Assembly (NCBI GenBank): GCA_013360945.1
Contig: JABWAQ010000028.1
Location: 1 to 37,513, forward strand
Direction of reading: 5' to 3'
Length of the DNA: 37,513 bases
Source: Candidatus Brocadia sp.
GTDB taxonomy: Bacteria > Planctomycetota > Brocadiia > Brocadiales > Brocadiaceae
Below, one piece after another: positions 13,592 to 37,200 of the stretch. The position numbers and the translations under genes are program-made. The notes under the pieces were generated by a model that had not been told where the DNA came from, searched no databases, and saw only the letters and a list, made by a program, of their open reading frames with translations. Within the stretch, counting starts at the first letter, position 1. The number at the start of each line of letters is the position of its first letter.

Positions 13592-13601
13592 CAAAGGAAA
13601 A

Positions 13602-13652
13602 GTGTGACATGTCACACAAGTGTGACTGTCACAGAAGTGTGACATGTCACAC
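13602..13652. promoter_or_regulatory. Triple palindromic activator array, copy 1
   Basis: Three palindromes stand in a row: GTGTGACATGTCACAC (13602-13617), GTGTGACTGTCACAG (13620-13634) and GTGTGACATGTCACAC again (13637-13652), each pair separated by AA. The array centre is about 148 bp upstream of the -24 element at 13774, the usual position for sigma-54 enhancer-binding proteins. A matching array with the same spacing precedes the second riboswitch gene (35137-35187). The regulator is unknown. CRP is unlikely because the TGTGA and TCACA halves are 4 bp apart, not 6. Confidence 0.7.
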
Positions 13653-13773
13653 TTTCTTTACTGTTTGACGACTTGTTTATCCTAAATATTCCTAACCTCC
13701 TCTAGTTATAATCAAAATCAAGGAAAGGAGTTATGTTAAAAACAACTGAGTAAAGTTTGTTGTTCCTGGATTC

Positions 13774-13790
13774 TGGCAAACAAATTGCTT
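13774..13790 (+). promoter_or_regulatory. Sigma-54 type promoter, copy 1
   Basis: TGGCAA, five bases, TTGC matches the -24/-12 consensus TGGCAC-N5-TTGC with one mismatch and exact spacing. The predicted start, near 13799-13801, falls directly at the 5' edge of the riboswitch. The second cassette has the equivalent TGGCAT-N5-TTGC at 35312. Confidence 0.7.
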
Positions 13791-13799
13791 AAATAGTCT

Positions 13800-13948
13800 T
13801 TGCGATAAAGGTAAACCCTGAGTGATCAGGGGGCGCAAAGTAATAGGGTCTTTATTGTAGCGCAGGTCTCTATGATCGGCTTCCTGGAGGTATAAACCTC
13901 CTCGCTACGATATGAATTGAAGCTCCTGAGTGTTAAGCTGTTAAAAGA
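13800..13948 (+). promoter_or_regulatory. GEMM-I (c-di-GMP-I) riboswitch, copy 1
   Basis: GATAAAGGTAAACC, a CCCTGA-GTGA-TCAGGG hairpin closed by a GNRA tetraloop, and GGCGCAAAG follow in the order of GEMM-I aptamers. Aligned by hand to Vc2, the positions equivalent to ligand-contacting G20 and stacking A47, and to C44, are conserved. G at position 20 favours c-di-GMP over cGAMP. A second stem can form from ATAGGGTC (13843-13850) with GGTCTCTAT (13865-13873). Unlike copy 2, this copy carries an extra imperfect palindrome, about 13852-13911 (TTGTAGCG ... CGCTACGA, with an inner GGAGG/CCTCC hairpin), within or next to the second stem. The 3' limit of the element is uncertain. It should control the giant secreted protein and the PQQ-repeat gene behind it. 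Confidence 0.78.
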
Positions 13949-13949
13949 T

Positions 13950-14020
13950 AGCCTTACTGCCGAAGATGTTGTCCATGAAGGTATTGCATGGATTTCTTGG
14001 CAGTAAGGCTTTTTTGTTTT
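13950..14020 (+). terminator. Intrinsic terminator of riboswitch 1
   Basis: AGCCTTACTGCC (13950-13961) pairs perfectly with GGCAGTAAGGCT (13999-14010), and TTTTTTGTTTT follows. It lies between the aptamer and the gene, so it is probably the expression platform. In copy 2 one base pair has changed from G-C to A-T on both arms, which is covariation supporting the stem. Confidence 0.88.
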
Positions 14021-14125
14021 CAGCCTTGTAAGGTTTGATTGAGGGTAACGCTGAAAATAATGAATTTAACACGTTTCTTTATTTATGGCTATTGCTTCTC
14101 ACGGATTAAAGGAAAGAATAAAACC

Positions 14126-17100
14126 GTGCAGATACTGAAAAAACACGGTGTTACTCTATGTATCCTCATTGCCCTCATCCTGGCATGCGGGCAGGAAGGA
14201 CGGGGACAGTCATATCTTGATACCTGGCATTGGAGAAACCCACTGCCACAGGGCAATTCAATCGAAGGTGCAGCCTATGGCAATTCGACCTTCGTGTCTG
14301 TGGGATGGCGTGGTACTATCCTTACCTCACAAGATGGAACAACATGGACATCCAGGTTCTCAGGAACAAACGAGGACCTCGACGGGGTTGCCTATGGCAA
14401 TGGAACCTTTGTGGTTGTTGGCTGGAATGGCACCATTCTTACCTCTCCGGATGGGGCAACATGGACGTCCAGGTCGTCAGGAACCACACGAACGCTCAGA
14501 GGAGTAACCTACGGCAATTCCACCTTTGTGGCTGTGGGGTATAATGGCACCATTCTTACCTCTCCGGACGGGGTGATATGGACGTCCAGGTCGTCAGGAA
14601 CTACGAATATCCTCAACGGAGTAGCCTATGGGGATGGAACCTTTGTTGCTGTGGGAGATTTTGGCACAATTCGCACCTCGGCAGATGGAGCAACATGGAC
14701 GACCAGATCATCCGGAACGACGCAAGCCCTTTATGGGGTAACCTATGGGAGTTCTACCTTTGTTGCCGTCGGTTGGAACGGCACAATCCGCACCTCGCCA
14801 AATGGAGTAACATGGACGTCCAGATCATCTGGAACTACTGATTTCCTCAACGGGGTGGTCTGGGACAATGACCTCTTTGCAGTCGTGGGATTTGGAGGCA
14901 CAATCCTGACTTCTGCCGATGGGGTAACATGGACGTCCAGGTCGTCAGGCACCACGAATCGGCTCAACGGAGTAACCTATGGCAATTCCACTTTCGTGGC
15001 TGTGGGAGGAAGTGGCACAATCCTGACTGCTCCTGATGGAGTAACATGGACAACCAGATCATCTGGAACGACTCAAGGACTTTATGGGGTTGCCTATGGA
15101 AATTCCACCTTCGTTGCCGTTAGTTGGAACGACACGATCCTTACCTCAACAGACGGGGTAACATGGACGTCCAGGTCGTCAGTCACCACGAATCAACTCG
15201 AAGGTGTAACCTATGGCAATTCTACCTTCGTGACGGTTGGTTGGAATGGCACAATTCTTACCTCAGATGATGGAGTCACATGGTCGCCCAGCTCATCCGG
15301 AACGACTCAACACCTCGATGGAGTAACCTATGACAATTCCACCTTTGTGGCGGTGGGAAAAAATGGCACAATCCTGACTTCTGCCGATGGCGTGACCTGG
15401 ATAGCAAGGACATCGGGAACGAGTGATTGGCTCAGCGGAGCAACCTATGGCAATTCCTCCTTTGTGGCGGTAAGCATGTACGGTACGATCCTTACCTCTG
15501 CCGATGGGGAAACATGGGCAACGAGTTATTCAACCGGGGGTGGAGAAGAAGTTGGTTTTGTAGGCATAGCCTACGGCGATTCCACTTTTGTGACCGTGGG
15601 TTCTGAAGGTATAATCATGACTTCTGTCGATGGGGAAACCTGGATGCGCAGGTCGCCAAAAACCTGGAATTGGCTCGAAGGGGTAGCCTATGGCAATTCC
15701 ACCTTCGTGGCCGTGGGAGAAGATGGCACGATCCTTCAATCAGGTACAGTTGATACCACCCCAACACCCACATTAACACCGACACCAACAGCGACGCCAA
15801 CGCCGACACCGACGCCGGTTACAAACCAACCACCCGAAGTAACGACAATGTCTGCGGCAAGCGTAACACTCAGTTCGGCAATATTAACGGGATCGGTCAA
15901 TGCCAATGGAACGGATGCGACTGTATGGTTTGAGTATGGCACAAGCACCGGATCGTATAGTATCACAACCCCGTCGCAAGATATCAATGGCACGACAGAC
16001 ATTGGAATAAGCGCCAGCATAAATGGATTAACCCCATGGACGACGTATTATTACAGGACGAGGGCACAAAACAGCCACGGAACGTCGTATGGAGCAGAAT
16101 CCATGTTTTTCCCAATACCGCAGGTTTCTGGCGGATATACTCATAGCATTGCCGTAAAGCCGGACGGCACAGTATGGGCATGGGGATATAATGGGAGTGG
16201 TGAATTGGGAGATAATACCACCACACAAAGAAACGCTCCGGTACAGGTGCACGGATTTAATAATATTGGTTTCCTCGATGGTGTCATTACCGTTTCGGCT
16301 GGCGCTAACCACAACCATGCATTGAAGTCTGACGGTACGGTCATGGCGTGGGGGTATAATGGGTCTGGTCAGTTGGGAGACAATTCTACCAGTAGCGCCT
16401 TTACCCCTGTTGGGGTAGCAGGACTCACTGATGTTGTCGCCATTGCCGCCGGGGAAAATCACAGCCTTGCCCTGAAGTCGGATGGCACCGTGTGGGCATG
16501 GGGCTGGAATAATCTTGGCCAATTGGGTGATAATACTACTACCCAAAGGCTCACCCCCGTTCAAGTGCATGGATTTAATAATGTTGGTTTCCTGAGCGGA
16601 GTTATAGCCATAGCCGCTGGATATGATTACAGCCTTGCCCTGAAGTCAGACGGCACGTTATGGGCATTTGGATTCAATGGATATGGTCAATTGGGAGATG
16701 ATACTACTACACAAAGAAACACTCCGGTACAAGTAAAGGGTATTGGTGGTGTTGGTTTCCTCAATGGTGTTATTGCCATGGATGCCGGGTCGACTCATAG
16801 CCATGCCATGAAATTAGATGGTACAGTCTGGGCATGGGGAGGAGATAATGTATATGGTAAATTGGGAGATAATACGACTTCCCAAAGGCTCACCCCCGTA
16901 CAGGTGCATGGAAATAATAATGTTGGTTTTATCACAGGCGTTACTGCTATTGCTGTTGGGATAAACCACAGCCTTGCCGCAAAGTTGGACGGCACGGCAT
17001 GGGGATGGGGCAATGATACGTATGGTCAATTAGGTGATGGTCCTACTAATTTAGCTATAAATAGCACACCAATCCAGGTGAGCGGTCTCACAGGCGTAGT

Positions 17101-20100
17101 TGATATTGATGCCTACGCCCACGCTTACCATAGTCTGGCCCTGAAGTCTGACGGTGCGATCATGGCATGGGGGTTGAATGGGAATGGCCAATTGGGAGAC
17201 AATTCTACCACACAGAGGAACACCCCTGTACAGGTAAACAATCTTAATCTGGGACCGGATACAACGCAACCCACGGTGAGTGCAACAAACCCGCTGAATA
17301 ATGCGACCAATGTGGCAGTTAATAGTCCCATTACAGCCACGTTCGATGAGGATATGGATGCCAGTACAATAAACGCAGACACGTTTACCATAAATGGAGT
17401 GACAGCTACGTCAGTCAGTTACAACAGCACCACCAAAACTGCAACATTTACCCCATCTGCGAATCTGGACTATCTTACGACCTATACGGCAACGATCACA
17501 ACGGGAGCAAAAGACCTTGCTGGTAATCCAATGGCTGCAAATTACTCATGGAGCTTTACGACGGAATCAGCGCCGGATACCACGCCTCCCACGGTTACTT
17601 CAACAAGCCCCCTGAACAATGCGACCGGTGTGGCGATAAATAGCGTTATTACTGCTACTTTCAGTGAGGATATGGATGAATCGGTGTTGGCAGAAACCAA
17701 CTATTTTACTGTGAATGGAGTGACACCTGCGTTAGTCAGTTATGATATCCAAAGCAAGACAGCAACATTTACCCCATCGGTGAATCTGGCGTACTCAACG
17801 ATCTATACGGCAACGATTACCACGGAAGCGTTGGATCTGGCGGGCAATCCTCTGGCTGCAAATTACTCATGGAGCTTTACGACAGAGGCGCCGCTGGATG
17901 CGACACCTCCGGAAGTTGCCATAACCGATCCGACAATAGATCCAAGCTATGCGACGAATACCACGCCGATGCCTTTGAGTGGTACGGTGTCAGATGCAGG
18001 TGGAGTTGCAAGTGTGACATGGATGAATAGCGGTACGGGTGGGAATGGTACTGCCGATGTGAATGGGAACACATGGACGGTTACAGGTGGGGTGCCGCTT
18101 GCGGAGGGGACAAATAACAATCTTATCACGGTGGCAGCCGCCGATAATGCCGGCAATGTGAATACAGACCAGATCACAGTGACACTGGATCAAACAGCCC
18201 CGACAATAACCATCACCAGTCCAACCTCTAATGCTACCTATACAACCGGCAGCAGTACGATTGATCTCGGTGGTACTGCGGATGATACGGGTGGTGGGCT
18301 GGCAAATGTAACGTGGAGTAATAGTGCAGGAGGAAGCGGTGCGGCAAGCGGAACCGATAACTGGACTATTTCTGGCATATCTCTATCTACCGGAGAGAAT
18401 ATTATAACGGTAACAGCCACAGACAACGTAGGCAATACGGGTACGGATACGATCACAGTTACCTACGCCGGTGTTCCCACGGTAGTGACAGGTACAGCGG
18501 CAAGCGTGACATTAAGTTCTGCAATTTTGAATGGTACGGTCAATGCCAACGGAACGGAAACGACGGCATGGTTCGAGTATGGCACGAGCACTGGATCGTA
18601 TAGTATCACAACCCCGTCGCAAGATATCAATGGCACGACAGACATTGGAATAAGCGCCGGCATAAGCGGTCTAACGCCATGGACAACGTATTATTACCGG
18701 ATTGCGGCGCAGAACAGCTTTGATACCTCATATGGAAACGAAACCACCTTTATGCTACGATCGCAGATTTCAGCGGGGGGAGAACACAGCATTTCCCTGA
18801 AGTCAGATGGCACGGCGTGGGCATGGGGGCGGAATGGTACTGGACAATTAGGAGATGGGACTTTTACAAATAGCCCGACGCCGGTGCAGGTAAGCGGACT
18901 TAATGGTGTTATTGGTATTGCTGGTGGGCGTAGTCACAGCCTGGCATTGAAGTCGGACGGGACGGTGCGGGCATGGGGATATAATTTCTATGGACAATTA
19001 GGAGATGTGACTTTTACAAATAGCCCGATGCCGGTGCAGGTTAGCGGCCTTAATGGTGTTATTGGTATTGCTGGTGGAGTTTCTCACAGCCTGGCATTGA
19101 AGTTGGACGGGACGGTGTGGGCATGGGGAATGAATAATACTGGTCAATTAGGAGATGGGACTATCGTAAATAGGCCGACGCCGGTGCAGGTTAGCGGCCT
19201 TAATGGTGTTATTGGTATTGCTGGTGGAGTTTCTCACAGCCTGGCATTGAAGTCGGATGGGACGGTGCGGGCATGGGGAGCGAATGGTTTTGGACAATTA
19301 GGAGATGGGACTTTTACAAATAGCCCGACGCCGGTGCGGGTAAGCGGTCTTAGTGGTGTTATTGGTATTGCTGGGGGGGGCACTCACTGCCTGGCGTTGA
19401 AGTCGGACGGGACGGTGTGGGCATGGGGAGCGAATGGTTTTGGACAATTAGGAGATGGGACTTTTACACATAGCCCGACGCCGGTGCAGGTAAGCGGCCT
19501 TAGTGGTGTTATCGGTATTGCTGGTGGGGAGTATCACAGCCTGGCATTGAAGTCGGACGGGACGGTATGGGCATGGGGAGATAATTTCAATGGACAATTA
19601 GGAGATGGGACTATCGTAACTAGGCCGGCACCTGTGCAGGTAAGCGGCCTTAGTGGTGTTATTGGTATTGCTGGGGGGGATTTTCACAGTCTGGCATTGA
19701 AGTTGGACGGGACGGTGTGGGCATGGGGATATAATTCCTATGGACAATTAGGAGACGGGACTACCACAGATAGCACAATTCCTGTACAGGTGAGTAATCT
19801 CAACCTTGCGCCTGATACTACCTATCCCACAGTCAGTTCCACAAATCCTTCCAGTGGCGCTACCGGTGTAGGTATCGACAGCACCATCACTGCCACATTC
19901 AGCGAGGTAATGGACGCATCGACTATCGGCACATGGACATTTCATTTGTTGGATGCCGGGACGCTGAGCCAGGTAACAGGCACTGTCACTTACAGCGGCA
20001 CAACGGCAACATTTTTTCCATCAACGCTAAGTTATGCCACCAGCTACAATGCCACCATCACAAATGGTGTTAAGGATCTTGCGGGAAATGCTATGAATGC

Positions 20101-22414
20101 AGAAGGAGGAGGTTACACCTGGGGCTTTGTTACAGTGAGCGGGGGAGTAGAGCCTACCCCGACTCCCGCATTAACACCGACACCAACACCAACGCCTGTG
20201 CCGACATTGACACCGACGCCTGCACCAACTCCAATACCGACGCCGTCACCGTTGCCAACACTGGTACCGACGCCAACAGCAATACCAACGCCAGGCGACA
20301 ATACATTGCCTACTATTATTTCTACAAGCCCGCCAGAAGGAGAAACAGGGGTGACAATTAACGCTGTTATAACTGCCACTTTCAGCGAGGCGATGGATTC
20401 AACAACTATTGGAACGTCCACATTTAGTTTATTGAATACCATGACGATGAGCCAGGTAACAGTCACCGTAACCTATAGCGGCACAACGGCTACATTTACT
20501 CCATCGACAAACCTCACCCCTCATAGCACGTATACTGCCTCCATTACAACGGGCGTCAAAGACATGGCCGGAAATGCCATGGCTTCCGACTATACATGGA
20601 GTTTCACTACATCAGTGACAAACGATTTAAACACCCTTACGGCAGAAGAACTTGTTCAATTATTAATTGGCAGCGGAGGAGACAGTGTAAGTAACATAAC
20701 ATTTACTGGTTCTGCTTTGGCAGCCGGGTATTTCGGTGGTGGTCTGGCATATGGTATTGGGATAGAAAATGGGGTCATTTTAAGCACTGGAAATATAGCA
20801 GACTTTATTGGCCCCAATACCGATAGCGGGAATTCTACATCGAATGGCACGCCAGGTGATGAAGATCTTGACTTTTTAACCGAATCAACAACGTTTGATG
20901 CGTCTGTATTAGAATTTGATTTTGTTCCAACGGACAACAACTTAAGCTTTCAATTTGTATTTGCTTCGGAAGAATACAATGAATACGTGTACCAATTTAA
21001 CGACGTCTTCGCATTCTATGTAAATGGGGTGAATATCGCCCTGGTTCCTGAAACAACAATTCCTATTTCCGTTAATACTATCAATTTGAATGATAATGCA
21101 ACTTATTATATTAATAATGATCTCGAAATGTTAACACCGCCATACAATACGCAATATGATGGTTTTACAACCGTGTTAACCGCAAAGATTACCGTTACCC
21201 CAGGAAACACGCACCATATTAAGTTGGCAATTGCCGACAACCTGGATTATATACTTGATTCTGCAATCTTTGTCGCATCAGGAAGCTTCATTAGCACCGA
21301 ACTTTCTGCTGTAACGGATGCTGCAACAAATATTACCTCTAACTTGGCAACATTAAACGGGGAAGTAAACGGCAATGGGTTTCCAACATCGGTATGGTTT
21401 GGATATGGAACAAGTAGCGGATCTTATAGCAATACTACTTCCGTACAAACGATAAGTGGATCGGGCAATATACCGATAAGTAGCAGTATAAATGGATTAT
21501 CCCCGTTGACTACCTATTATTACAGGATAGTGGCGCAAAACAGTTCTGGTACCGCGTATGGAAGTGAGTTGAGCTTCTCTACGACGAGTAGCGGTGGAGG
21601 TGGTGGGGGTGGCGGCGGCGGAGGGGGTGGTGGTGGAGGCGGTGGTGGAGAAGGAACACCGACTCCGGCACCAACGGTAACATTGCCACCGACACCAATG
21701 CCGACACTGTCGCCAACACCAACGCCGATGCCGACACCAATTCCGACACCTACGCCTGCCGTGACACCGACGCCGCTGGAAACCTGCAAGATCTACGGTT
21801 TTATAAAAGACGAAGAAAATGAAGAACCCATAGGTTCTGCAACGGTAACTGTACGCAGGTTAACAACGGAGGTAGAGGAAAAGACCGAAAGTGATCAGTA
21901 TGGTTTTTTCAAGTTTACTGACCTGCGGGCAGACAAGTATGTGTTGAAATGTGAAAAAGATTATTACAGGAGATACAGGGAGACGGTAAGTTTCGAAAAA
22001 GAAGGAGAGACAAAGAGTATTACTGTTAAAATGGAGAGGATCACATCCGTCCCGGAACCGACGCCTACAGACGGTGGGGGTGGCGGTGGCGGTGGTGGAA
22101 CACCAACACCAGGCATAACGCCCACGCCTGCAGTGACGCCGACCCCTGGAATAAATAAAGGAGTGCTTTTTGGATTTGTGAAAGACAAAAATGGAGATCC
22201 GATAGAGTCTGCAGTGGCAAGTTTACGTGAGCTGAACTCAGACGGTCAGGAACAGTTGCAATTGAGCAGCCAGGATGGTTTCTTTGAATTTAGCAACCTG
22301 GAAGCGGGTAGTTATGTGGTAAGGATAGAGGATTCTTCTTATCGAAACATAGTAGAACTGCGAGAAAGAGAAACAAAGGAAATTAAAGATATCGTGATTG
22401 AAATCCAGGATTAA
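14126..22414 (+). CDS. Giant secreted multidomain surface protein (Asp-box, RCC1, Ig, choice-of-anchor L)
   Basis: About 2762 residues. I prefer the GTG at 14126 because AAAGGAAAG precedes it by about nine bases and a normal signal peptide follows (LKKHGVTLCILIALILACG); the frame is also open from TTG 14039 and ATG 14060. Domains by position: 13 repeats of about 39 residues with Asp-box-like TSPDGVTW (14270-15750); PT linker; Fn3-like (15830-16125); RCC1 repeats (16125-17250); two Big_5 Ig-like domains (17260-17890); two Ig-like domains (17890-18470); Fn3-like (18475-18765); seven RCC1 repeats of exactly 50 residues (18765-19800); two Big_5 around a PT linker (19805-20615); choice-of-anchor L (20620-21290); Fn3-like; a poly-Gly tract; two CarboxypepD_reg/CnaB-like domains (21785-22055, 22160-22410). 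No membrane anchor or LPXTG is seen. It is probably an adhesin or matrix protein; that role is inference. Expression is probably under sigma-54 and c-di-GMP riboswitch control. Confidence 0.85.
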   Translation: MQILKKHGVTLCILIALILACGQEGRGQSYLDTWHWRNPLPQGNSIEGAAYGNSTFVSVGWRGTILTSQDGTTWTSRFSGTNEDLDGVAYGNGTFVVVGWNGTILTSPDGATWTSRSSGTTRTLRGVTYGNSTFVAVGYNGTILTSPDGVIWTSRSSGTTNILNGVAYGDGTFVAVGDFGTIRTSADGATWTTRSSGTTQALYGVTYGSSTFVAVGWNGTIRTSPNGVTWTSRSSGTTDFLNGVVWDNDLFAVVGFGGTILTSADGVTWTSRSSGTTNRLNGVTYGNSTFVAVGGSGTILTAPDGVTWTTRSSGTTQGLYGVAYGNSTFVAVSWNDTILTSTDGVTWTSRSSVTTNQLEGVTYGNSTFVTVGWNGTILTSDDGVTWSPSSSGTTQHLDGVTYDNSTFVAVGKNGTILTSADGVTWIARTSGTSDWLSGATYGNSSFVAVSMYGTILTSADGETWATSYSTGGGEEVGFVGIAYGDSTFVTVGSEGIIMTSVDGETWMRRSPKTWNWLEGVAYGNSTFVAVGEDGTILQSGTVDTTPTPTLTPTPTATPTPTPTPVTNQPPEVTTMSAASVTLSSAILTGSVNANGTDATVWFEYGTSTGSYSITTPSQDINGTTDIGISASINGLTPWTTYYYRTRAQNSHGTSYGAESMFFPIPQVSGGYTHSIAVKPDGTVWAWGYNGSGELGDNTTTQRNAPVQVHGFNNIGFLDGVITVSAGANHNHALKSDGTVMAWGYNGSGQLGDNSTSSAFTPVGVAGLTDVVAIAAGENHSLALKSDGTVWAWGWNNLGQLGDNTTTQRLTPVQVHGFNNVGFLSGVIAIAAGYDYSLALKSDGTLWAFGFNGYGQLGDDTTTQRNTPVQVKGIGGVGFLNGVIAMDAGSTHSHAMKLDGTVWAWGGDNVYGKLGDNTTSQRLTPVQVHGNNNVGFITGVTAIAVGINHSLAAKLDGTAWGWGNDTYGQLGDGPTNLAINSTPIQVSGLTGVVDIDAYAHAYHSLALKSDGAIMAWGLNGNGQLGDNSTTQRNTPVQVNNLNLGPDTTQPTVSATNPLNNATNVAVNSPITATFDEDMDASTINADTFTINGVTATSVSYNSTTKTATFTPSANLDYLTTYTATITTGAKDLAGNPMAANYSWSFTTESAPDTTPPTVTSTSPLNNATGVAINSVITATFSEDMDESVLAETNYFTVNGVTPALVSYDIQSKTATFTPSVNLAYSTIYTATITTEALDLAGNPLAANYSWSFTTEAPLDATPPEVAITDPTIDPSYATNTTPMPLSGTVSDAGGVASVTWMNSGTGGNGTADVNGNTWTVTGGVPLAEGTNNNLITVAAADNAGNVNTDQITVTLDQTAPTITITSPTSNATYTTGSSTIDLGGTADDTGGGLANVTWSNSAGGSGAASGTDNWTISGISLSTGENIITVTATDNVGNTGTDTITVTYAGVPTVVTGTAASVTLSSAILNGTVNANGTETTAWFEYGTSTGSYSITTPSQDINGTTDIGISAGISGLTPWTTYYYRIAAQNSFDTSYGNETTFMLRSQISAGGEHSISLKSDGTAWAWGRNGTGQLGDGTFTNSPTPVQVSGLNGVIGIAGGRSHSLALKSDGTVRAWGYNFYGQLGDVTFTNSPMPVQVSGLNGVIGIAGGVSHSLALKLDGTVWAWGMNNTGQLGDGTIVNRPTPVQVSGLNGVIGIAGGVSHSLALKSDGTVRAWGANGFGQLGDGTFTNSPTPVRVSGLSGVIGIAGGGTHCLALKSDGTVWAWGANGFGQLGDGTFTHSPTPVQVSGLSGVIGIAGGEYHSLALKSDGTVWAWGDNFNGQLGDGTIVTRPAPVQVSGLSGVIGIAGGDFHSLALKLDGTVWAWGYNSYGQLGDGTTTDSTIPVQVSNLNLAPDTTYPTVSSTNPSSGATGVGIDSTITATFSEVMDASTIGTWTFHLLDAGTLSQVTGTVTYSGTTATFFPSTLSYATSYNATITNGVKDLAGNAMNAEGGGYTWGFVTVSGGVEPTPTPALTPTPTPTPVPTLTPTPAPTPIPTPSPLPTLVPTPTAIPTPGDNTLPTIISTSPPEGETGVTINAVITATFSEAMDSTTIGTSTFSLLNTMTMSQVTVTVTYSGTTATFTPSTNLTPHSTYTASITTGVKDMAGNAMASDYTWSFTTSVTNDLNTLTAEELVQLLIGSGGDSVSNITFTGSALAAGYFGGGLAYGIGIENGVILSTGNIADFIGPNTDSGNSTSNGTPGDEDLDFLTESTTFDASVLEFDFVPTDNNLSFQFVFASEEYNEYVYQFNDVFAFYVNGVNIALVPETTIPISVNTINLNDNATYYINNDLEMLTPPYNTQYDGFTTVLTAKITVTPGNTHHIKLAIADNLDYILDSAIFVASGSFISTELSAVTDAATNITSNLATLNGEVNGNGFPTSVWFGYGTSSGSYSNTTSVQTISGSGNIPISSSINGLSPLTTYYYRIVAQNSSGTAYGSELSFSTTSSGGGGGGGGGGGGGGGGGGGEGTPTPAPTVTLPPTPMPTLSPTPTPMPTPIPTPTPAVTPTPLETCKIYGFIKDEENEEPIGSATVTVRRLTTEVEEKTESDQYGFFKFTDLRADKYVLKCEKDYYRRYRETVSFEKEGETKSITVKMERITSVPEPTPTDGGGGGGGGGTPTPGITPTPAVTPTPGINKGVLFGFVKDKNGDPIESAVASLRELNSDGQEQLQLSSQDGFFEFSNLEAGSYVVRIEDSSYRNIVELRERETKEIKDIVIEIQD
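18761..19800 (+). repeat. Tandem 150-bp coding repeats (RCC1 block 2)
   Basis: The string ATTGGTATTG recurs at 18911, 19061, 19211, 19361, 19661 (ATCGGTATTG at 19511), a period of exactly 150 bp. Neighbouring units are nearly identical in DNA, unlike the first RCC1 block, suggesting recent expansion or gene conversion. Confidence 0.9.
21593..21650 (+). repeat. Poly-glycine G-rich tract
   Basis: GGT/GGA/GGG/GGC codons give about 18-20 glycines in a row. A second G-rich Gly tract is at 22074-22099. Both lie beside PT linkers and flank the first CarboxypepD_reg-like domain. The + strand has many G-runs that could form a quadruplex or slip in replication. Confidence 0.85.
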
Positions 22415-22486
22415 AGAGTTACGGTATTGAAATTTCACACGGCAGGGATGCTGGAAAAACCAAAATCTGTGGAGGAGGTAAACGTC

Positions 22487-25400
22487 TTGAATTCATTTAC
22501 CAAATGTCGCACGTATTTTACCGGCGCTATTTTTTCACAAGATTGCATTTTACATGGCTTCCGCCATTTTTGCCTTTCCCGGGTGTTTGCCATCGTGTTT
22601 TTCCTGTGTATGCAACCGGCCGTAGTATATGCCCAGCTTGCTGATACTCCCTGGCCGATGTTTATGCACGACATCCGGCACACCGGGCAGAATACCTTAG
22701 GCGGCCCTCAGCAAGGCGAGCTTTCCTGGCAATTCCAGACAGGAAGTGAGATCGTGGCATCTCCAGTCTTGGGGACTGATGGCACGATTTATATCGGTGA
22801 TGTTGCAGGAAAATTTTACGCTGTAAATCCGGGGGGCGCCCTGAAATGGACTTTTGTAACAGACGGGGAAATATATGCTGCCGCTGCGGTAGCTGCCGGG
22901 GATACGCAGGGCGTTATTTATGTCGGGTCAAGAGACGGATTTCTTTACTCTCTAAAAGACCTCGGCGCTTCCGGCACAGTCACCTGGAAGTATGAAACAT
23001 CGCAGGGTATTAGCGCATCACCCGTAATAAACCCTCAGGATGGCGCCGTATATTTTGGTTCCGAAGATCGGGGTCTGTACGCCCTGGATACTGCCGGTAA
23101 TCAGAAATGGATGACTACATTAGACGAAGAGATTTGGGGTTCACCAGTATTGGATATACAAGATAATGCCCTTTATGTGGGTACGATAGCCGGTTTGTTT
23201 TATGCGATAAACGCTGCCGACGGAACAGAAAAATGGGTTTACGATACAAATAATTTTATCACCGGCTCCCCCACAATTGACGAGGAAAATGGGGTAATCC
23301 TCTTCGGTACGGAAGATGGGATCATTTATGCCTTAGATAAAAATAACGGATCGACTGCATGGACATACCCAACCGGCAGCGCAATCAGGTCTGCCCCTGC
23401 CATCGATGCTGCAACTGATGCGGACGCTATTTATGTAACCGCTATGGACGGAATTCTCTATGCTTTAAACAGAACGACTGAGGGAACGAAAACCGCCGGA
23501 TCCTTGAAATGGAAATACGCAACAGGCGATGCAATTGGCTCGTCTCCGGCTATCGATAAAGATGGCAATATCTATTTTGGATCTGCAGACAAAAATATTT
23601 ATTCAATCGCCAGGGATGGAACCTTGAAATGGACCTACCCTGCTCAGGATGAGGTTGATTCGTCTCCGGCCATTGGCACTCAGGAATTTCTCTACATCGG
23701 TTCTTCCGATGGGAATCTTTATGCAATCGGGTCAGGAACTACGGCACGGTTAGCGTCTACGGTAAAACTAAATCCGATAATTCCAGCTGAAATAACCTTT
23801 GGTGAATCGTTATCAATAACAGGACAGATTGATCCGCCACACCTTGCCCAGGTAACCATGACCTTTGCCAATGACACCGGTGAAACAGCTACTGAGGTAA
23901 TTACTTCCACAATAGAAGGGACTTTTTCCCTGCCTGATTATTCCCTCGTAAGCGGCGGGTTGTGGAGTGTTGCAGCACAGTGGGATGGTGATGGAGATCA
24001 CGAAGGCGCTGCAAGCGATCCGCAAACATTTACGGTAAATCCTGCAAAGCCGGTACTTACTATCGAAGCATCTTCCCCGATAATTAACATTGGTCAAACC
24101 GTAAATATCACCGGAATGGTAACCTTAACGCCCGATGACGAGACAACACGAGATAAATTCCTGGAAGAGGAATTAAAGCTGTTTCGCAGTGACCCGTCGC
24201 TGATGTTCGGGGATGTCCTTGGGACGCGGACGGTTTTATCAGGAAATCAGCTCCATTATTCATTTGACGGCGTTCCATTGCCGTCTGCAGGCACATGGAC
24301 CGTGTCGGTTGGCTTTGAGAAAACTGAAAGTTTTGAAGGTACCCACTCCGGGGAGGTCACCGTAACAGTGCAACCGATCGACAAGGCAGTGGCCGGTTAC
24401 GCCATCCTTATAGAAGGCCGTGTTGAAGGCAACTCCGGTATAGATTCCCATAATCTTACTACAAATTCTATCTATAAAAAACTCCTCGCCATGGGTTTTA
24501 AAACAGGGGATATTTACTATTTTAATTTCGATAACACTCAAGACGGCGTAGTCGTGTACGATAAACCCACGAAGGATAAAATAGTAAACACGATAACAGG
24601 GATGGCCGGCAGTATGAATACGGCCCCTGCCTCATTGTATATCATCTTCGTCGGACACGGTGATAAAGAAAAATTGTTTATTTACCCCGATAAACTCACG
24701 TCGGGCGATCTGGCAAATGCCATAAACAATCTCGAATCTCAGTTGAATGCAAGTGCGGTCAGCGAGACTGTTGTAGTCGTTTTGGGCGCCAACCACTCCG
24801 GGAGTTTTATAGATGACCTGTCGGCCCCAGACACTTCCACGGCGGGCATAAAGCGCATTATTGTCACGAGTGCCGATTCGGAAGAGGTTGCTTATAAAGG
24901 TCCTTTGCCTCCGGACGAAACGATCAGACAGGGAGATTATTTTGTGTATGAATTCTTCAGGTACGCCGCCGTGGGCATGAGTTTGAAACGGTGTTACGAA
25001 GAGGCCGCGGGAAAAATCGCTCTGTTTACGAAAAACGAGACGGGCAACGGACTGAATGGCGCCAGCGCAGGCAACAATCAATATTTTGACGCTTCAGCGC
25101 AGCATCCCCTGCTCGATGATAATGGAGACGGGGTGGGAACATATCAAAAACTGTATTCTACCGAAGGCAGAGACGGCGGACTCTCCGCAAACCACATCAT
25201 GGGTGTCGGAACTCCTCCTCCGCCTCCGCTTGAATTGACACAGGTCACGGATATAACAACACTGGACGCAGATGACACCAGTCCTGCCTTGTTTGCAAAG
25301 GTAAACTCTGTTGACAAGGTTGGCGAGGTATGGACCGAAATTGCCTCACCCCGCCATACATTGAAACATAATAAGAATGCGACGGAACAACAAGTCATAA

Positions 25401-26512
25401 AACTGCCTGGATTCCGCTACAACTCATTCGATGAAGCGGAGGGAAAATATCTGTGGAATGATTTCAGCAGTGGTGAAAATGACTTCAACAATTTCGGGGA
25501 TAAAGGAAGCTACGAGGTATTTTATTTTGCACGGGACAATGAAAGGGAATTTACCCCACTTATGGAATCACAGGTTTACAGGAATGCCGTGAATAACACG
25601 GCTCCTAACACGTTTACCTTTATTTCTCCGGCAAACGGAACGGAAACGACAATTGCTTTAACATTCGACTGGGAAGATAGTGATGATTCAGAAGGCGAGG
25701 CGGTAACCTATACGTTTCAGATATCGGAAAACAGCGGGTTTGACCCTGTATATTATCAACAGAGCGGTTTAACAGATAGTATTGCCGTTGCAGACAGCAC
25801 CGCAGGTCTTCACGACGGGGTAACCTACTATTGGAGGGCTGTAGCTACAGACGCCGGCGGGGGAATTACTTTTATAGGGACAACGAGCGGAACGTCTTAT
25901 GGAATAATCTCCTCTGCGAAGGCAATAGACTACCATGTCCGTAACGGAACAAATAGTTCCGCGAATTCCAGCAGTTTTACGCCAAAACTGGCAAATGGCT
26001 ATCCGGGATTTGTAAAGGGATTTATTTTCGACAGCGACACACATGCAAAAATTACCAAAGCAACGATTACCGTGCAGGGAACGGAAGGCTCTTACACGAC
26101 AACGGAGAGCGGCGCTTATCTCATACAACTCTCCTCCGGTGAATACGCTCTTTCGGCCGACGCTCCGGGATATGAGGCAGCAATTGTGCCCGTGCGGGTA
26201 GATGCGCTCAACACGACGACACAGGACATCGGATTGGCGGTAGCCACCCAGACTGCCAGTCTCACCGGTGTAGTGATGGATAAGAAAGATCATGCCCCTT
26301 TGGAAGGTGTAACGGTAACAATCAGGGAAAAAAAGACTGACATAACCGTAACGACAATGACTGATAGCACAGGCAACTACTCGATTACCGACAGGGCATC
26401 CGGTAAATATAGCCTGACAGCGGAGAAGAGCGGTTATAAGAGTTACAAAACAAATACGAAACTCAAGGCTGGAAAAATTAAAAACCAAAACATAAAACTG
26501 AAAAAAGATTGA
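22487..26512 (+). CDS. Secreted PQQ-propeller protein with Cys-less C13-like domain
   Basis: 1341 residues from TTG 22487, chosen because GGAGGAGG lies eight bases upstream; an upstream TTG (22427) lacks such a site. An N-terminal hydrophobic stretch (VFAIVFFLCMQPAVVYAQ) looks like a signal peptide. Domains: PQQ-like beta-propeller (about residues 58-418, starting WPMFMHDIRHTGQN); two Ig-like domains (420-632); a caspase-fold domain resembling peptidase C13 (634-905) with His724 in FVGHGDKEK, while the expected catalytic Cys is Asn769 in LGANHSGSF; a Fn3-like domain (about 1035-1138); two CarboxypepD_reg-like domains at the end. The Cys-to-Asn change predicts a non-catalytic domain. It begins 72 bp after the giant gene on the same strand, so it probably shares that transcript and its riboswitch. 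No membrane anchor is seen. Confidence 0.82.
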   Translation: MNSFTKCRTYFTGAIFSQDCILHGFRHFCLSRVFAIVFFLCMQPAVVYAQLADTPWPMFMHDIRHTGQNTLGGPQQGELSWQFQTGSEIVASPVLGTDGTIYIGDVAGKFYAVNPGGALKWTFVTDGEIYAAAAVAAGDTQGVIYVGSRDGFLYSLKDLGASGTVTWKYETSQGISASPVINPQDGAVYFGSEDRGLYALDTAGNQKWMTTLDEEIWGSPVLDIQDNALYVGTIAGLFYAINAADGTEKWVYDTNNFITGSPTIDEENGVILFGTEDGIIYALDKNNGSTAWTYPTGSAIRSAPAIDAATDADAIYVTAMDGILYALNRTTEGTKTAGSLKWKYATGDAIGSSPAIDKDGNIYFGSADKNIYSIARDGTLKWTYPAQDEVDSSPAIGTQEFLYIGSSDGNLYAIGSGTTARLASTVKLNPIIPAEITFGESLSITGQIDPPHLAQVTMTFANDTGETATEVITSTIEGTFSLPDYSLVSGGLWSVAAQWDGDGDHEGAASDPQTFTVNPAKPVLTIEASSPIINIGQTVNITGMVTLTPDDETTRDKFLEEELKLFRSDPSLMFGDVLGTRTVLSGNQLHYSFDGVPLPSAGTWTVSVGFEKTESFEGTHSGEVTVTVQPIDKAVAGYAILIEGRVEGNSGIDSHNLTTNSIYKKLLAMGFKTGDIYYFNFDNTQDGVVVYDKPTKDKIVNTITGMAGSMNTAPASLYIIFVGHGDKEKLFIYPDKLTSGDLANAINNLESQLNASAVSETVVVVLGANHSGSFIDDLSAPDTSTAGIKRIIVTSADSEEVAYKGPLPPDETIRQGDYFVYEFFRYAAVGMSLKRCYEEAAGKIALFTKNETGNGLNGASAGNNQYFDASAQHPLLDDNGDGVGTYQKLYSTEGRDGGLSANHIMGVGTPPPPPLELTQVTDITTLDADDTSPALFAKVNSVDKVGEVWTEIASPRHTLKHNKNATEQQVIKLPGFRYNSFDEAEGKYLWNDFSSGENDFNNFGDKGSYEVFYFARDNEREFTPLMESQVYRNAVNNTAPNTFTFISPANGTETTIALTFDWEDSDDSEGEAVTYTFQISENSGFDPVYYQQSGLTDSIAVADSTAGLHDGVTYYWRAVATDAGGGITFIGTTSGTSYGIISSAKAIDYHVRNGTNSSANSSSFTPKLANGYPGFVKGFIFDSDTHAKITKATITVQGTEGSYTTTESGAYLIQLSSGEYALSADAPGYEAAIVPVRVDALNTTTQDIGLAVATQTASLTGVVMDKKDHAPLEGVTVTIREKKTDITVTTMTDSTGNYSITDRASGKYSLTAEKSGYKSYKTNTKLKAGKIKNQNIKLKKD

Positions 26513-35311: not shown

Positions 35312-35327
35312 TGGCATTTGTATTGCC
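35312..35327 (+). promoter_or_regulatory. Sigma-54 type promoter, copy 2
   Basis: TGGCAT, five bases, TTGC has the exact -24/-12 spacing with one mismatch. The predicted start, near 35337, is about 20 nt before the riboswitch core. Confidence 0.7.
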
Positions 35328-35351: not shown

Positions 35352-35443
35352 ATCACGATAAAGGTAAACCCTGAGTGATCAGGGGGCGCAAAGTGATAGG
35401 GTCTTGAAATATACAGGGACGTAGTTAAAAGACACTATGGTGA
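35352..35443 (+). promoter_or_regulatory. GEMM-I (c-di-GMP-I) riboswitch, copy 2
   Basis: GATAAAGGTAAACC, the CCCTGA-GTGA-TCAGGG hairpin and GGCGCAAAGT are identical to copy 1 over the core. The second stem is clearer here: ATAGGGTCTT (35396-35405) pairs with AAGACACTAT (35429-35438) with one mismatch. The closing stem may use CACGAT (35354-35359) with ATGGTG (35437-35442), one mismatch. The position equivalent to Vc2 G20 is G, pointing to c-di-GMP. Confidence 0.8.
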
Positions 35444-35451
35444 AAAAAGAC

Positions 35452-35510
35452 AGCCTTACTACCGAAGACGTTTTCACATAAATATCTTGGTAGTAAGGCT
35501 TTTTTGTTTT
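35452..35510 (+). terminator. Intrinsic terminator of riboswitch 2
   Basis: AGCCTTACTACC (35452-35463) pairs with GGTAGTAAGGCT (35489-35500), extended by AAGA/TCTT past a bulged G, and TTTTTTGTTTTT follows. It is the same terminator as in copy 1 apart from one compensated base pair and a different loop. Confidence 0.88.
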
Positions 35511-35655: not shown

Positions 35656-37200
35656 ATGAGAATGAATAATGCTGTAATATGCCGTTTTATGGGATTGATC
35701 ATGTTTTTCACGGTCATTTTTTCTTTTGAGACGTATGGTCAGCAACTTTCTTTTGAACAATTAAAAGAGATACGTAAAAAGGCATCAGAGAAAAACACGT
35801 TTTCCGGTAAGAACCGTAGCAAAAGTGTTGTTGGAACATCTAAACCGTTGGCTGTAACCTCTGATTTAAATACACTTACCGCAACACAACTTGCCGAGTC
35901 GCTAGTTGGGGTGGGGGTAAGCGTGAGTAATGCAACATTTACGGGTGCAAATGTAGCGGCGGGTAGTTTCAGCGATGGATTGTCAAATGGAATAGGGATA
36001 GAGAGTGGCATTATTCTCAGTTCCGGAGACATATCTTTTGTAAATGGTCCCAATGATTCGGACTTCTTTTCAGTAGATAACGGTCAGCCAGGCGACTCCG
36101 ACCTTGACGCATTGGTTTCGGCCGATACGCTTGACGCGGCAGTACTTGAGTTCGATTTTATTCCAACCGGGGATGTCTTAGCTTTTCAATATGTTTTTGC
36201 TTCGGAAGAATACAACGAATTTGTTGGCTCATCTTTTAATGATGTATTTGGTTTTTTTGTAGATGGCGTTAACATTGCCTTAATTCCCAGCACGACAACG
36301 CCCGTTGCAATCAACAATGTCAATTTGTTGAGTAATTCAGCATTTTATATTAATAATGACCCTGATGACCTTGGAATGCCAACACCATTCGATAATCTTC
36401 AGTATGATGGTTTTACTACCGTGCTCACTGCACAGGTAACCGTAACACCTGATGTCACCCATCATATGAAACTGGCAATTGCAGATACATCAGACGAAGT
36501 CTATGATTCTACGGTTTTCATTTCAGGGAGTAGTCTTGTTAGTGGTGATTTGGCCTCTGCAACAACTGATAATCCAACTGATATAGCGTGTGATTCAGCG
36601 ATATTACATGGAACAGTTAATCCGAACGGCCTATCAACGACAGTATGGTTCACATATCGTACGGGTGTAGGTTTGCCTATTGATACAGCAATAGAGAGTG
36701 TGGGCGGAGGGACTAGCGACATTGCTGTAAGCGCAAACATAGGCGGATTAATGCCTGGTGAGGATTATTTTTATAAAGTAGTTGCGCAGAACAGTGAAGG
36801 TACCAATGAGGGAAGCGAAATACATTTTGAAACGCTTTTGGATGGATGTGAAACAGCTATTACTTTAGCTTACTTTGACGCCAAGGCGGGCAAAGACGGT
36901 AGCGTTACTTTGGCATGGGAAACGGCTACCGAGGTTGACAATGCGGGTTTCAACCTTTACCGCGCCAAGTTAGAGAATGGCAAATACAAAAAAATCAACG
37001 ATACGCTCATTCCTGCTCAGGGCGATACGGTATCCGGGGCCAGCTACAGTTATATCGACACACCAGGCAATGGCACTTTCTACTACAAGCTGGAAGACAT
37101 AGACTACAACGGGGTGAGCACCATGCACGGCCCTGAAAAGGTAAGGGTGAGGACGGGTGATACCGCGACAAGGAGTTTAAAGAGGCAGAAACGTAAGTAA
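35656..37200 (+). CDS. Secreted choice-of-anchor L protein with shared C-terminal domain
   Basis: 514 residues. The ATG at 35656 follows a GGGGGGG ribosome site. Signal peptide about 1-28 (VICRFMGLIMFFTVIFSFETYG). A choice-of-anchor L domain spans about 68-300 (VSNATFTGANVAAGSF, VFASEEYNEFVGSSFNDVFGF), closely matching the one in the giant protein (20620-21290). A Fn3-like domain follows (about 305-395), then a C-terminal domain (about 405-500: LAWETATEVDNAGFNLYRA ... MHGPEKVRVR) ending in the basic tail KRQKRK. The same domain is broken in the gene at 2-1194. No hydrophobic anchor follows, so this domain may be the sorting or attachment module. Expression is probably controlled by the upstream sigma-54 promoter and c-di-GMP riboswitch. 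Role in adhesion or matrix is inference. Confidence 0.88.
   Translation: MRMNNAVICRFMGLIMFFTVIFSFETYGQQLSFEQLKEIRKKASEKNTFSGKNRSKSVVGTSKPLAVTSDLNTLTATQLAESLVGVGVSVSNATFTGANVAAGSFSDGLSNGIGIESGIILSSGDISFVNGPNDSDFFSVDNGQPGDSDLDALVSADTLDAAVLEFDFIPTGDVLAFQYVFASEEYNEFVGSSFNDVFGFFVDGVNIALIPSTTTPVAINNVNLLSNSAFYINNDPDDLGMPTPFDNLQYDGFTTVLTAQVTVTPDVTHHMKLAIADTSDEVYDSTVFISGSSLVSGDLASATTDNPTDIACDSAILHGTVNPNGLSTTVWFTYRTGVGLPIDTAIESVGGGTSDIAVSANIGGLMPGEDYFYKVVAQNSEGTNEGSEIHFETLLDGCETAITLAYFDAKAGKDGSVTLAWETATEVDNAGFNLYRAKLENGKYKKINDTLIPAQGDTVSGASYSYIDTPGNGTFYYKLEDIDYNGVSTMHGPEKVRVRTGDTATRSLKRQKRK

Follow-up and report, generated by a model that had tools for sequence, protein, structure and literature searches.

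Two genes in one stretch of a Candidatus Brocadia genome, each coding for a protein with a choice-of-anchor L match, lie behind what looks like the same regulatory leader. Do these leaders form a true two-layer control region, in which an activator would license initiation and c-di-GMP would license elongation, and are they confined to these two genes? An earlier note on the window (the whole stretch of 37,513 nt analysed here) had claimed the same four parts, in the same order, at both sites.

Two cassettes in the window

The sequence and a covariance model bear this claim out. Cassettes 1 and 2 both run from a triple palindrome through a -24/-12 element and a c-di-GMP-I aptamer to an overlapping terminator, followed by a choice-of-anchor L gene:

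13600..13654: triple palindromic operator 1, outer sites GTGACATGTCAC, middle site GTGACTGTCAC; 6 in the genome, reversed control 0
13774..13788, + strand: -24/-12 (sigma-54-type) element 1, TGGCAAACAAATTGC, 123 bp from the array end
13800..13964, + strand: c-di-GMP-I (GEMM-I) aptamer 1, RF01051 48.1 bits, position-20 equivalent G
~13945..14016, + strand: intrinsic terminator 1, -30.1 kcal/mol hairpin with T-rich tail
14039..22414, + strand: RCC1 / Ig / choice-of-anchor L protein, 2791 aa, start codon uncertain
22427..26512, + strand: BamB/PQQ-propeller-like protein, 1361 aa
35138..35189: triple palindromic operator 2, GTGCCATGACAC ... GTGACATGGCAC
35312..35326, + strand: -24/-12 element 2, TGGCATTTGTATTGC, 126 bp from the array end
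35353..35466, + strand: c-di-GMP-I aptamer 2, RF01051 50.3 bits, position-20 equivalent G
~35447..35506, + strand: intrinsic terminator 2, -25.1 kcal/mol
35656..37200, + strand: choice-of-anchor L protein, 514 aa, NF038133 E 5.4e-79

Operator 1 begins 2 bp ahead of the coordinate in the earlier note (13602). Both putative promoters have the GG/GC dinucleotides and the TGGC-N7-TTGC spacing, with predicted +1 positions at ~13800 and ~35338. The GEMM-I assignment is upheld, both aptamers scoring above the RF01051 gathering score of 35, and their position-20 region reads AAAGGTAAACC in both. The 5' arm of each terminator (AGCCTTACTGCC, 13950-13961, in cassette 1; 35452-35463 in cassette 2) overlaps the 3' strand of its aptamer. 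The array is not a chance feature: a scan of the 3.85-Mb genome gives six matches to its pattern and none to the reversed one. As far as sequence can tell, the cassette is confirmed as real at both sites.

It had also been claimed that the parts were kept while the sequence between them diverged. This is mostly so: identity between the two sites is 75% for the array, 93% for the first 55 nt of the aptamer and 74% for the terminator, against 65% for the array-to-promoter spacer (shuffle maximum 67%), 34% for the variable loop of the aptamer and 46% from terminator to start codon. The 15-nt -24/-12 element, however, reaches only 67% (shuffle maximum 60%).

Both downstream proteins match the choice-of-anchor L family, as had been proposed (for the 2791-aa protein, NF038133 E 5.9e-72). 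The larger is not a simple member of that family, a description we rejected in favour of an RCC1/Ig multidomain giant. The gene for the 1361-aa protein, 13 bp after it, is possibly on a shared transcript; a stretch of its product is related to the anammox S-layer family, under that family's cut-off.

The cassette across the genus

Recurrence of the full cassette, raised in the earlier note, was found at the level of the genome as well as of the genus, and the geometry is fixed. The operator consensus in the genus is GTGNCATGNCAC, centred on GTGACGTCAC. Strict triple arrays, a pattern that misses degenerate ones, are present in 18 of the 33 family genomes, where the reversed control has no match, and 52 of them were mapped over ten genomes of the genus; the 7 arrays of G024, G027 and G030 enter the per-genome counts and not the neighbour analysis. 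A c-di-GMP-I aptamer lies within 400 bp of 35 of these 52 arrays, at 144-171 bp in 25 of the 35 pairs, and is absent from the 400-bp range at the other 17; none was near any of the 23 arrays examined in five genomes of other genera. Seen from the aptamers, only 4 of the 38 in the genome of the window have a strict array at 400 bp or less. One further array in that genome, C22, was rejected as a cassette: its aptamer is 1017 bp off and its best promoter faces a LuxR-type gene instead. At another locus, C47, the aptamer begins ~170 nt past the -12.

The downstream proteins of 30 of the 35 genus cassettes were domain-scanned and the two window proteins analysed separately, leaving aside L182 (a copy of L181), L195 (no clear gene) and L209. 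Recognised targets are mostly surface or secreted proteins, which agrees with the surface or matrix regulon that had been suggested, except that regulatory genes, in the form of further activators, belong to it as well.

Aptamers are numerous in the genus, with at least 20-56 per genome (lower bounds, from 94 scored candidates per genome). Position 20, which we take to be G in c-di-GMP-type and A in cGAMP-type aptamers, is G in 37 and A in 1 of the 38 aptamers of the genome itself. Among the 35 array-linked aptamers it is A in 2 (L063 and L206), with L170 and L200 assigned G by eye; judged by this base, the two with A may prefer cGAMP.

The sigma-54-type promoter

Scored with weights set by hand from the consensus, a -24/-12 element (score ≥12) stands 108-128 bp from the array on the aptamer side in 30 of the 35 linked pairs and on the other side in none, in a window picked after the data were seen (shuffles: mean 0.57, maximum 4). 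A wider window of 60-200 bp gives 31 of 35 against 5 of 35. In the reverse test, a pattern of -24/-12 element plus aptamer gave 14 matches in the family, against 1 with a scrambled promoter. The operator lies upstream at 11 of these 14 sites (as a strict array at 7, as a triple array in which one site is degenerate at 3, and as a single site at 1), in one case (L208) with the promoter 279 bp from the array; no convincing operator was seen at the other three (L264-L266). The genome has one match to the RpoN DNA-binding domain (PF04552, E 9e-61) and 13 GGDEF domains.

A broader promoter-aptamer search set comprised 62 loci, of which a simple rule marked 34 as aptamer-like. Rfam was run on 38 of the 62, namely the 34 marked and 4 unmarked loci; it confirmed 32 of the 34, with the aptamer at the right place, and returned no aptamer match at L084, L114 and the 4 unmarked loci. 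Sigma-54-type promoters right before c-di-GMP-I aptamers also occur in records labelled Rokubacteria and Deltaproteobacteria.

A candidate activator

One array, at locus C41, lies between the gene for a REC-PAS-AAA+-Fis response regulator and a PAS-HD-GYP gene. The regulator has a receiver, a sigma-54 AAA+ domain with GAFTGA and a Fis-type helix-turn-helix. It is found (E 1e-120 or better) in at least 23 of the 33 family genomes, among them every one of the 18 that have strict arrays, in a table that ignores phylogeny and whose counts are lower bounds from 42 scored candidates per genome; G005 is the one member of the genus with neither the regulator, among the matches listed, nor a strict array. 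In 13 of 25 readable regulator loci, a strict palindrome lies no more than 165 bp past the 3' end of the gene. Co-occurrence and synteny lead us to nominate the C41 regulator as the candidate activator that would bind the triple array.

The neighbouring PAS-HD-GYP gene has no riboswitch, and its product, with the HHE...GYP signature in its HD domain, is a putative c-di-GMP phosphodiesterase-type enzyme. At the seven HD-GYP loci of the genus the -12 reads TTGAT (6) or TTGAC (1), not TTGC, at 121-308 bp; at the locus in the genome of the window the -24 is AGGC.

Proposed mechanism and alternatives

The two-layer interpretation of the earlier note is supported, and we infer the following mechanism, to which, taken as a whole, we give a probability of roughly 0.78. 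The NtrC-type two-component regulator of C41 would bind the triple palindrome and drive sigma-54 RNA polymerase at a -24/-12 promoter ~123 bp downstream, with the transcript starting at or just ahead of the aptamer. Bound c-di-GMP would then hold the 3' strand of the aptamer, block the overlapping terminator and permit read-through, as in an ON switch; without c-di-GMP, transcription would terminate in the leader. Output would therefore depend on high c-di-GMP as well as on the kinase/regulator signal. Because the C41 operator has the activator gene on one side and the riboswitch-free PAS-HD-GYP gene on the other, activation could bring c-di-GMP down too, which would complete a negative loop. 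One may speculate further that this is a genus-wide AND gate with a timer, in which one two-component activator opens the sigma-54 promoters both of secondary activators and of c-di-GMP-riboswitched surface genes, while turning on an HD-GYP enzyme that takes away the c-di-GMP on which those surface genes depend; we regard this extension as tentative and somewhat doubtful.

One alternative concerns the identity of the binding protein. Several of the genes behind arrays code for sigma-54 activators, the regulator has more than one close paralogue in some genomes, and five family genomes have the regulator and no strict array, so that another activator or a repressor might occupy the array of an otherwise unchanged cassette. 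We think this unlikely, given that none of the 10 family genomes without the regulator among the matches listed has a strict array, that in several genera the regulator gene is followed immediately on its 3' side by palindromes, and that the helix-turn-helix of the regulator, around AARLLGMSRRTIYRK, is well conserved. It is improbable, too, that the two layers form no functional gate, riboswitch leaders having multiplied by duplication and ended up behind sigma-54 promoters that were already there, under little joint selection. The abundance of aptamers, the close kinship of cassette 2 with C181 (81% spacer identity) and the operators that lack an aptamer in other genera would fit such a history, but the geometry is constant ahead of many unrelated genes in ten genomes, and 34 of the 38 leaders of the genome keep the overlap between terminator arm and aptamer.

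Ordinary sigma-70 transcription, with the -24/-12 element incidental and the palindromes CRP/FNR-like, seems to us very improbable for the cassette. An exact TTGACA does occur at -120 to -20 of 14 of the 38 aptamers in the genome, against 3.1% of random windows, so that many of its riboswitches seem to sit behind sigma-70-type promoters, and the AT-rich spacers yield weak sigma-70-like matches. Against it stand the positional enrichment and the scrambled-promoter control described above, and the position of the array, ~150 bp ahead of the predicted +1. CRP sites are spaced TGTGA-N6-TCACA; the half-sites of operator 1, TGTGA-CATG-TCACA, are separated by 4 bp, not 6, a spacing by which we rejected CRP/FNR-type sites.

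Relation to known systems and implications

NtrC-family activators such as NtrC and GlrR/QseF use several inverted-repeat sites that precede a -24/-12 promoter; the cassette differs in its site sequence and in having a riboswitch directly after the promoter. FleQ is a protein that itself senses c-di-GMP, whereas the sensor in the second layer of the cassette would be RNA. FleQ resembles the cassette in that an activator-type regulator and c-di-GMP converge on biofilm genes (PMC8125075). The pilM riboswitch of Geobacter metallireducens is a GEMM-I-type transcriptional ON switch with mutually exclusive aptamer and terminator, ligand-induced read-through and surface genes as output, much like the cassette; it senses c-GAMP, unlike our largely G-type aptamers, a subset of which follows a sigma-54 operator-promoter (PMC9262584). 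Sections of two other papers report 17 GEMM-I riboswitches in G. sulfurreducens (PMC8835794) and a fibronectin III protein under GEMM control in G. bemidjiensis (PMC2996986). These sets, like ours, have many aptamers per genome, some before surface proteins, and in those sections a triple operator with fixed sigma-54 geometry is not described (PMC8835794, PMC2996986). The single parts are already known; for the operator and the combined cassette, a search of open-licence PMC papers turned up no description, in line with the earlier note.

Granules and biofilms are the form in which anammox bacteria work, and their genetic manipulation is difficult; to our knowledge, little has been described of how they control genes for surface and matrix. 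A defined operator, 52 mapped strict arrays and a candidate activator together with its kinase yield testable predictions, RNA-seq included. If the timer reading is true, anammox aggregates would remodel their surfaces in pulses. The pairing is also seen in the Rokubacteria and Deltaproteobacteria records, so that stacking an activator-dependent promoter on an RNA switch for a second messenger may have arisen as a solution more than once. On the sequence evidence, Brocadia-group anammox bacteria appear to put many surface-protein genes under two serial locks, at fixed spacing and across related genomes.

Two cassettes in the window

All four parts that had been claimed at two sites, a palindrome array, a -24/-12 element, a c-di-GMP-I aptamer and a terminator, were found at both, and in the covariance-model check proposed by the earlier note each site scored above the gathering score (35) of RF01051, the Rfam c-di-GMP-I (GEMM-I) model. 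The Rfam search of the window returned two above-threshold matches, both of this type:

13800-13964, c-di-GMP-I aptamer of site 1 (RF01051, 48.1 bits)
35353-35466, c-di-GMP-I aptamer of site 2 (RF01051, 50.3 bits)

At each site a triple palindrome is followed by a TGGC-N7-TTGC element and then by the aptamer, whose 3' strand is overlapped by the 5' arm of the terminator behind it. The protein encoded downstream has the attributed choice-of-anchor L domain in each case; at site 1 it is 2791 aa long and RCC1/Ig-rich. Part of one window protein resembles the anammox S-layer family, scoring under that family's cut-off, and the host is taken to be a Brocadia-type anammox bacterium. The cluster separating the cassettes includes a CHASE2 adenylate/guanylate-cyclase-type gene (26884-28731), followed by a caspase-PEGA gene and then by a gene with a CsgG-like stretch.

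Operator array and promoter geometry

The strict array was defined as GTGNCATGNCAC-N20-25-GTGNCATGNCAC; the middle-site consensus is GTGACGTCAC (42 genus arrays of 46 bp). The window's own genome has six copies of this pattern, and 18 of 33 family genomes and 26 of 62 order genomes contain it; its reverse is absent from the own genome and from each of the 33. Rfam scans covered the neighbourhoods of 75 strict arrays, 52 of them in ten genus genomes and the other 23 in five genomes from outside the genus. Within the genus an aptamer lies no more than 400 bp from 35 of the 52, and 25 of these 35 aptamers lie 144-171 bp away from the array end; none of the 23 arrays in the five other genomes has one within 1300 bp. 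Four loci from other genera (L215, L218, L224, L227) carry one operator array between two tRNA genes, each at most about 0.7 kb away.

Promoter elements were scored with hand-set weights based on the -24/-12 consensus and a threshold of 12. At 108-128 bp from the array, a window picked after the data were seen, the threshold was reached on the aptamer side in 30 of 35 cases and on the opposite side in none; 500 shuffles averaged 0.57 of 35 and never exceeded 4. Among 20-bp windows on the aptamer side, those starting at 100 and 120 held 6 and 25 of the 35, and the others between 20 and 200 held 0-2. Over the wider 60-200 bp span the best score reached 12 in 31/35 on the aptamer side versus 5/35 opposite.

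The promoter-aptamer pair could also be sought with the array ignored. This gave 14 matches in the family versus one with a scrambled promoter, and that one overlaps a genuine cassette promoter (L189). A strict array is present at seven of the 14, its distance from the promoter being 279 bp in L208, and at three more one site of the triple array is degenerate; another, on own contig C122, has a single 9-of-10 operator site in the usual position, and at three no acceptable operator was found.

Across 84,980 species genomes, a -24/-12 element followed by an aptamer core was found at 62 loci, the scrambled-promoter control applying to the family search only; Rfam confirmed c-di-GMP-I in 32 of the 38 tested. 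A gap of 10-17 nt from the -12 element to the core occurs in none of the 32 confirmed loci versus 15 of 31 remaining matches (Fisher p 2.5e-6), as expected if the transcription start must precede the aptamer. Record titles include Rokubacteria, Deltaproteobacteria, Desulfobulbaceae, Syntrophaceae and Armatimonadetes; the promoter match in a Ruminococcus record is probably due to chance. Tandem sets of two or three c-di-GMP-I aptamers occur in records labelled Deltaproteobacteria and Syntrophaceae; those of L101 (2032-2447) and L119 (3132-3386) follow the -24/-12 match, and that of L141 (3004-3418) lies elsewhere in its locus.

Genes behind the cassettes

Behind the genus cassettes lie genes for choice-of-anchor L proteins (in the window), an IgGFc-binding-domain protein, SBBP and Kelch beta-propellers, autotransporters, caspase-PEGA proteins, a subtilase, a matrixin, a haem-peroxidase fragment and a polysaccharide-biosynthesis protein. 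Four cassettes precede sigma-54 activator genes (L063, L186, L206, L208), and 11 of the 30 proteins scanned from genus cassettes outside the window gave no Pfam match at 1e-5. Two further activators, of PocR type (L187, L199), follow arrays that lack a nearby aptamer.

Riboswitch repertoire and predicted ligand type

The own genome (3.85 Mb, 196 contigs) has 38 RF01051 matches, 37 of them above cut-off; the other one belongs to the window's 13800 site, which the genome search truncated to 13800-13862 at 33 bits and which scores 48.1 bits in the window search. Aptamers occur in all 33 family genomes, with at least 20-56 per genome across 11 genus members. A strict array lies within 400 bp of only four of the 38, and an exact TTGACA stands at -120 to -20 in 14 of 38, versus 3.1% of random windows from own-genome loci.

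Of the 38 own aptamers, 37 have G at position 20 and the other has A. Among the 35 array-linked aptamers, automated placement of this position gave G in 31 and A in 2; it went astray in the remaining two, which are G by eye. An A at this position marks a cGAMP-type aptamer. Both array-linked A20 leaders precede sigma-54 activator genes (L063, 10302-10421; L206, 3200-3315) and might respond to cGAMP; in L186, the leader of the orthologous activator, the base is G.

A hairpin with a T-rich tail overlaps the aptamer 3' strand in 34 of the 38 own leaders (-13.1 to -30.1 kcal/mol), and the overlap was not seen in the four on C146, C161, C49 and C163. This is the same mutually exclusive aptamer/terminator arrangement as that reported for the pilM ON switch (PMC9262584).

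In several own aptamers the second helix has a palindromic GTAGGGGCGTATTGCAATACGCCC-like repeat in its variable loop (L045, C86; L049, C51; L051, C76; L059, C181; L067, C132), as though a mobile repeat had inserted where the loop tolerates it. Short tandem repeats with ACACTA- and ATTCACACT-like units lie immediately 5' of several aptamers (L049, C51; L069, C154; L051, C76; L068, C69) and are possibly variable promoters. About 0.8 kb downstream of the L074 aptamer (C80:9271-9377), on the same strand, a GGDEF domain is encoded, a possible case of autoregulated c-di-GMP synthesis.

A candidate activator

Contig C41 carries one of the six own arrays, 59 bp past a response-regulator gene and ahead of a PAS-HD-GYP gene. 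The regulator combines receiver, PAS, sigma-54 AAA+ (with GAFTGA) and Fis HTH domains, and a HAMP-PAS-GAF histidine kinase gene lies immediately 5' of it. Among the matches listed, 23 of 33 family genomes have a relative at E 1e-120 or better, and these 23 take in all 18 that carry strict arrays; the ten genomes without a listed relative have no strict array, and five have the regulator and no strict array (Fisher p 3.2e-5, phylogeny ignored). G005, the only genus member with neither a listed relative nor a strict array, has at least 20 aptamers.

Thirty regulator loci were inspected, 25 with a readable frame. Thirteen of the 25 have a strict palindrome no more than 165 bp beyond the 3' end of the gene, and nine of these 13 continue with a long frame of PAS-HD-GYP type or with an HD-GYP signature. 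At seven genus loci with a strict array after the regulator gene, a -24-like element stands 121-308 bp on, before the next gene, with TTGAT (six) or TTGAC (one) where TTGC is expected; the own element starts AGGC. No aptamer lies within 1300 bp at any of the seven, and an HD-GYP signature was detected at five. In G009 (L250, L196) a stop interrupts the regulator frame, and the HD-GYP-type frame is short there and in G007 (L188), through real loss or assembly error.

A proposed serial gate

The own genome encodes an RpoN domain and 13 GGDEF domains. From the array, promoter, aptamer and regulator sequences we infer that the cassette acts as a serial gate, in which the kinase and activator would license sigma-54 initiation and c-di-GMP would then license elongation. 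The position of the HD-GYP gene beside the same operator suggests a negative feedback, the least secure step of this mechanism. Neither the operator nor the combined cassette was found described in the portions of open-licence PMC papers covered by our literature search, and each part is individually known.
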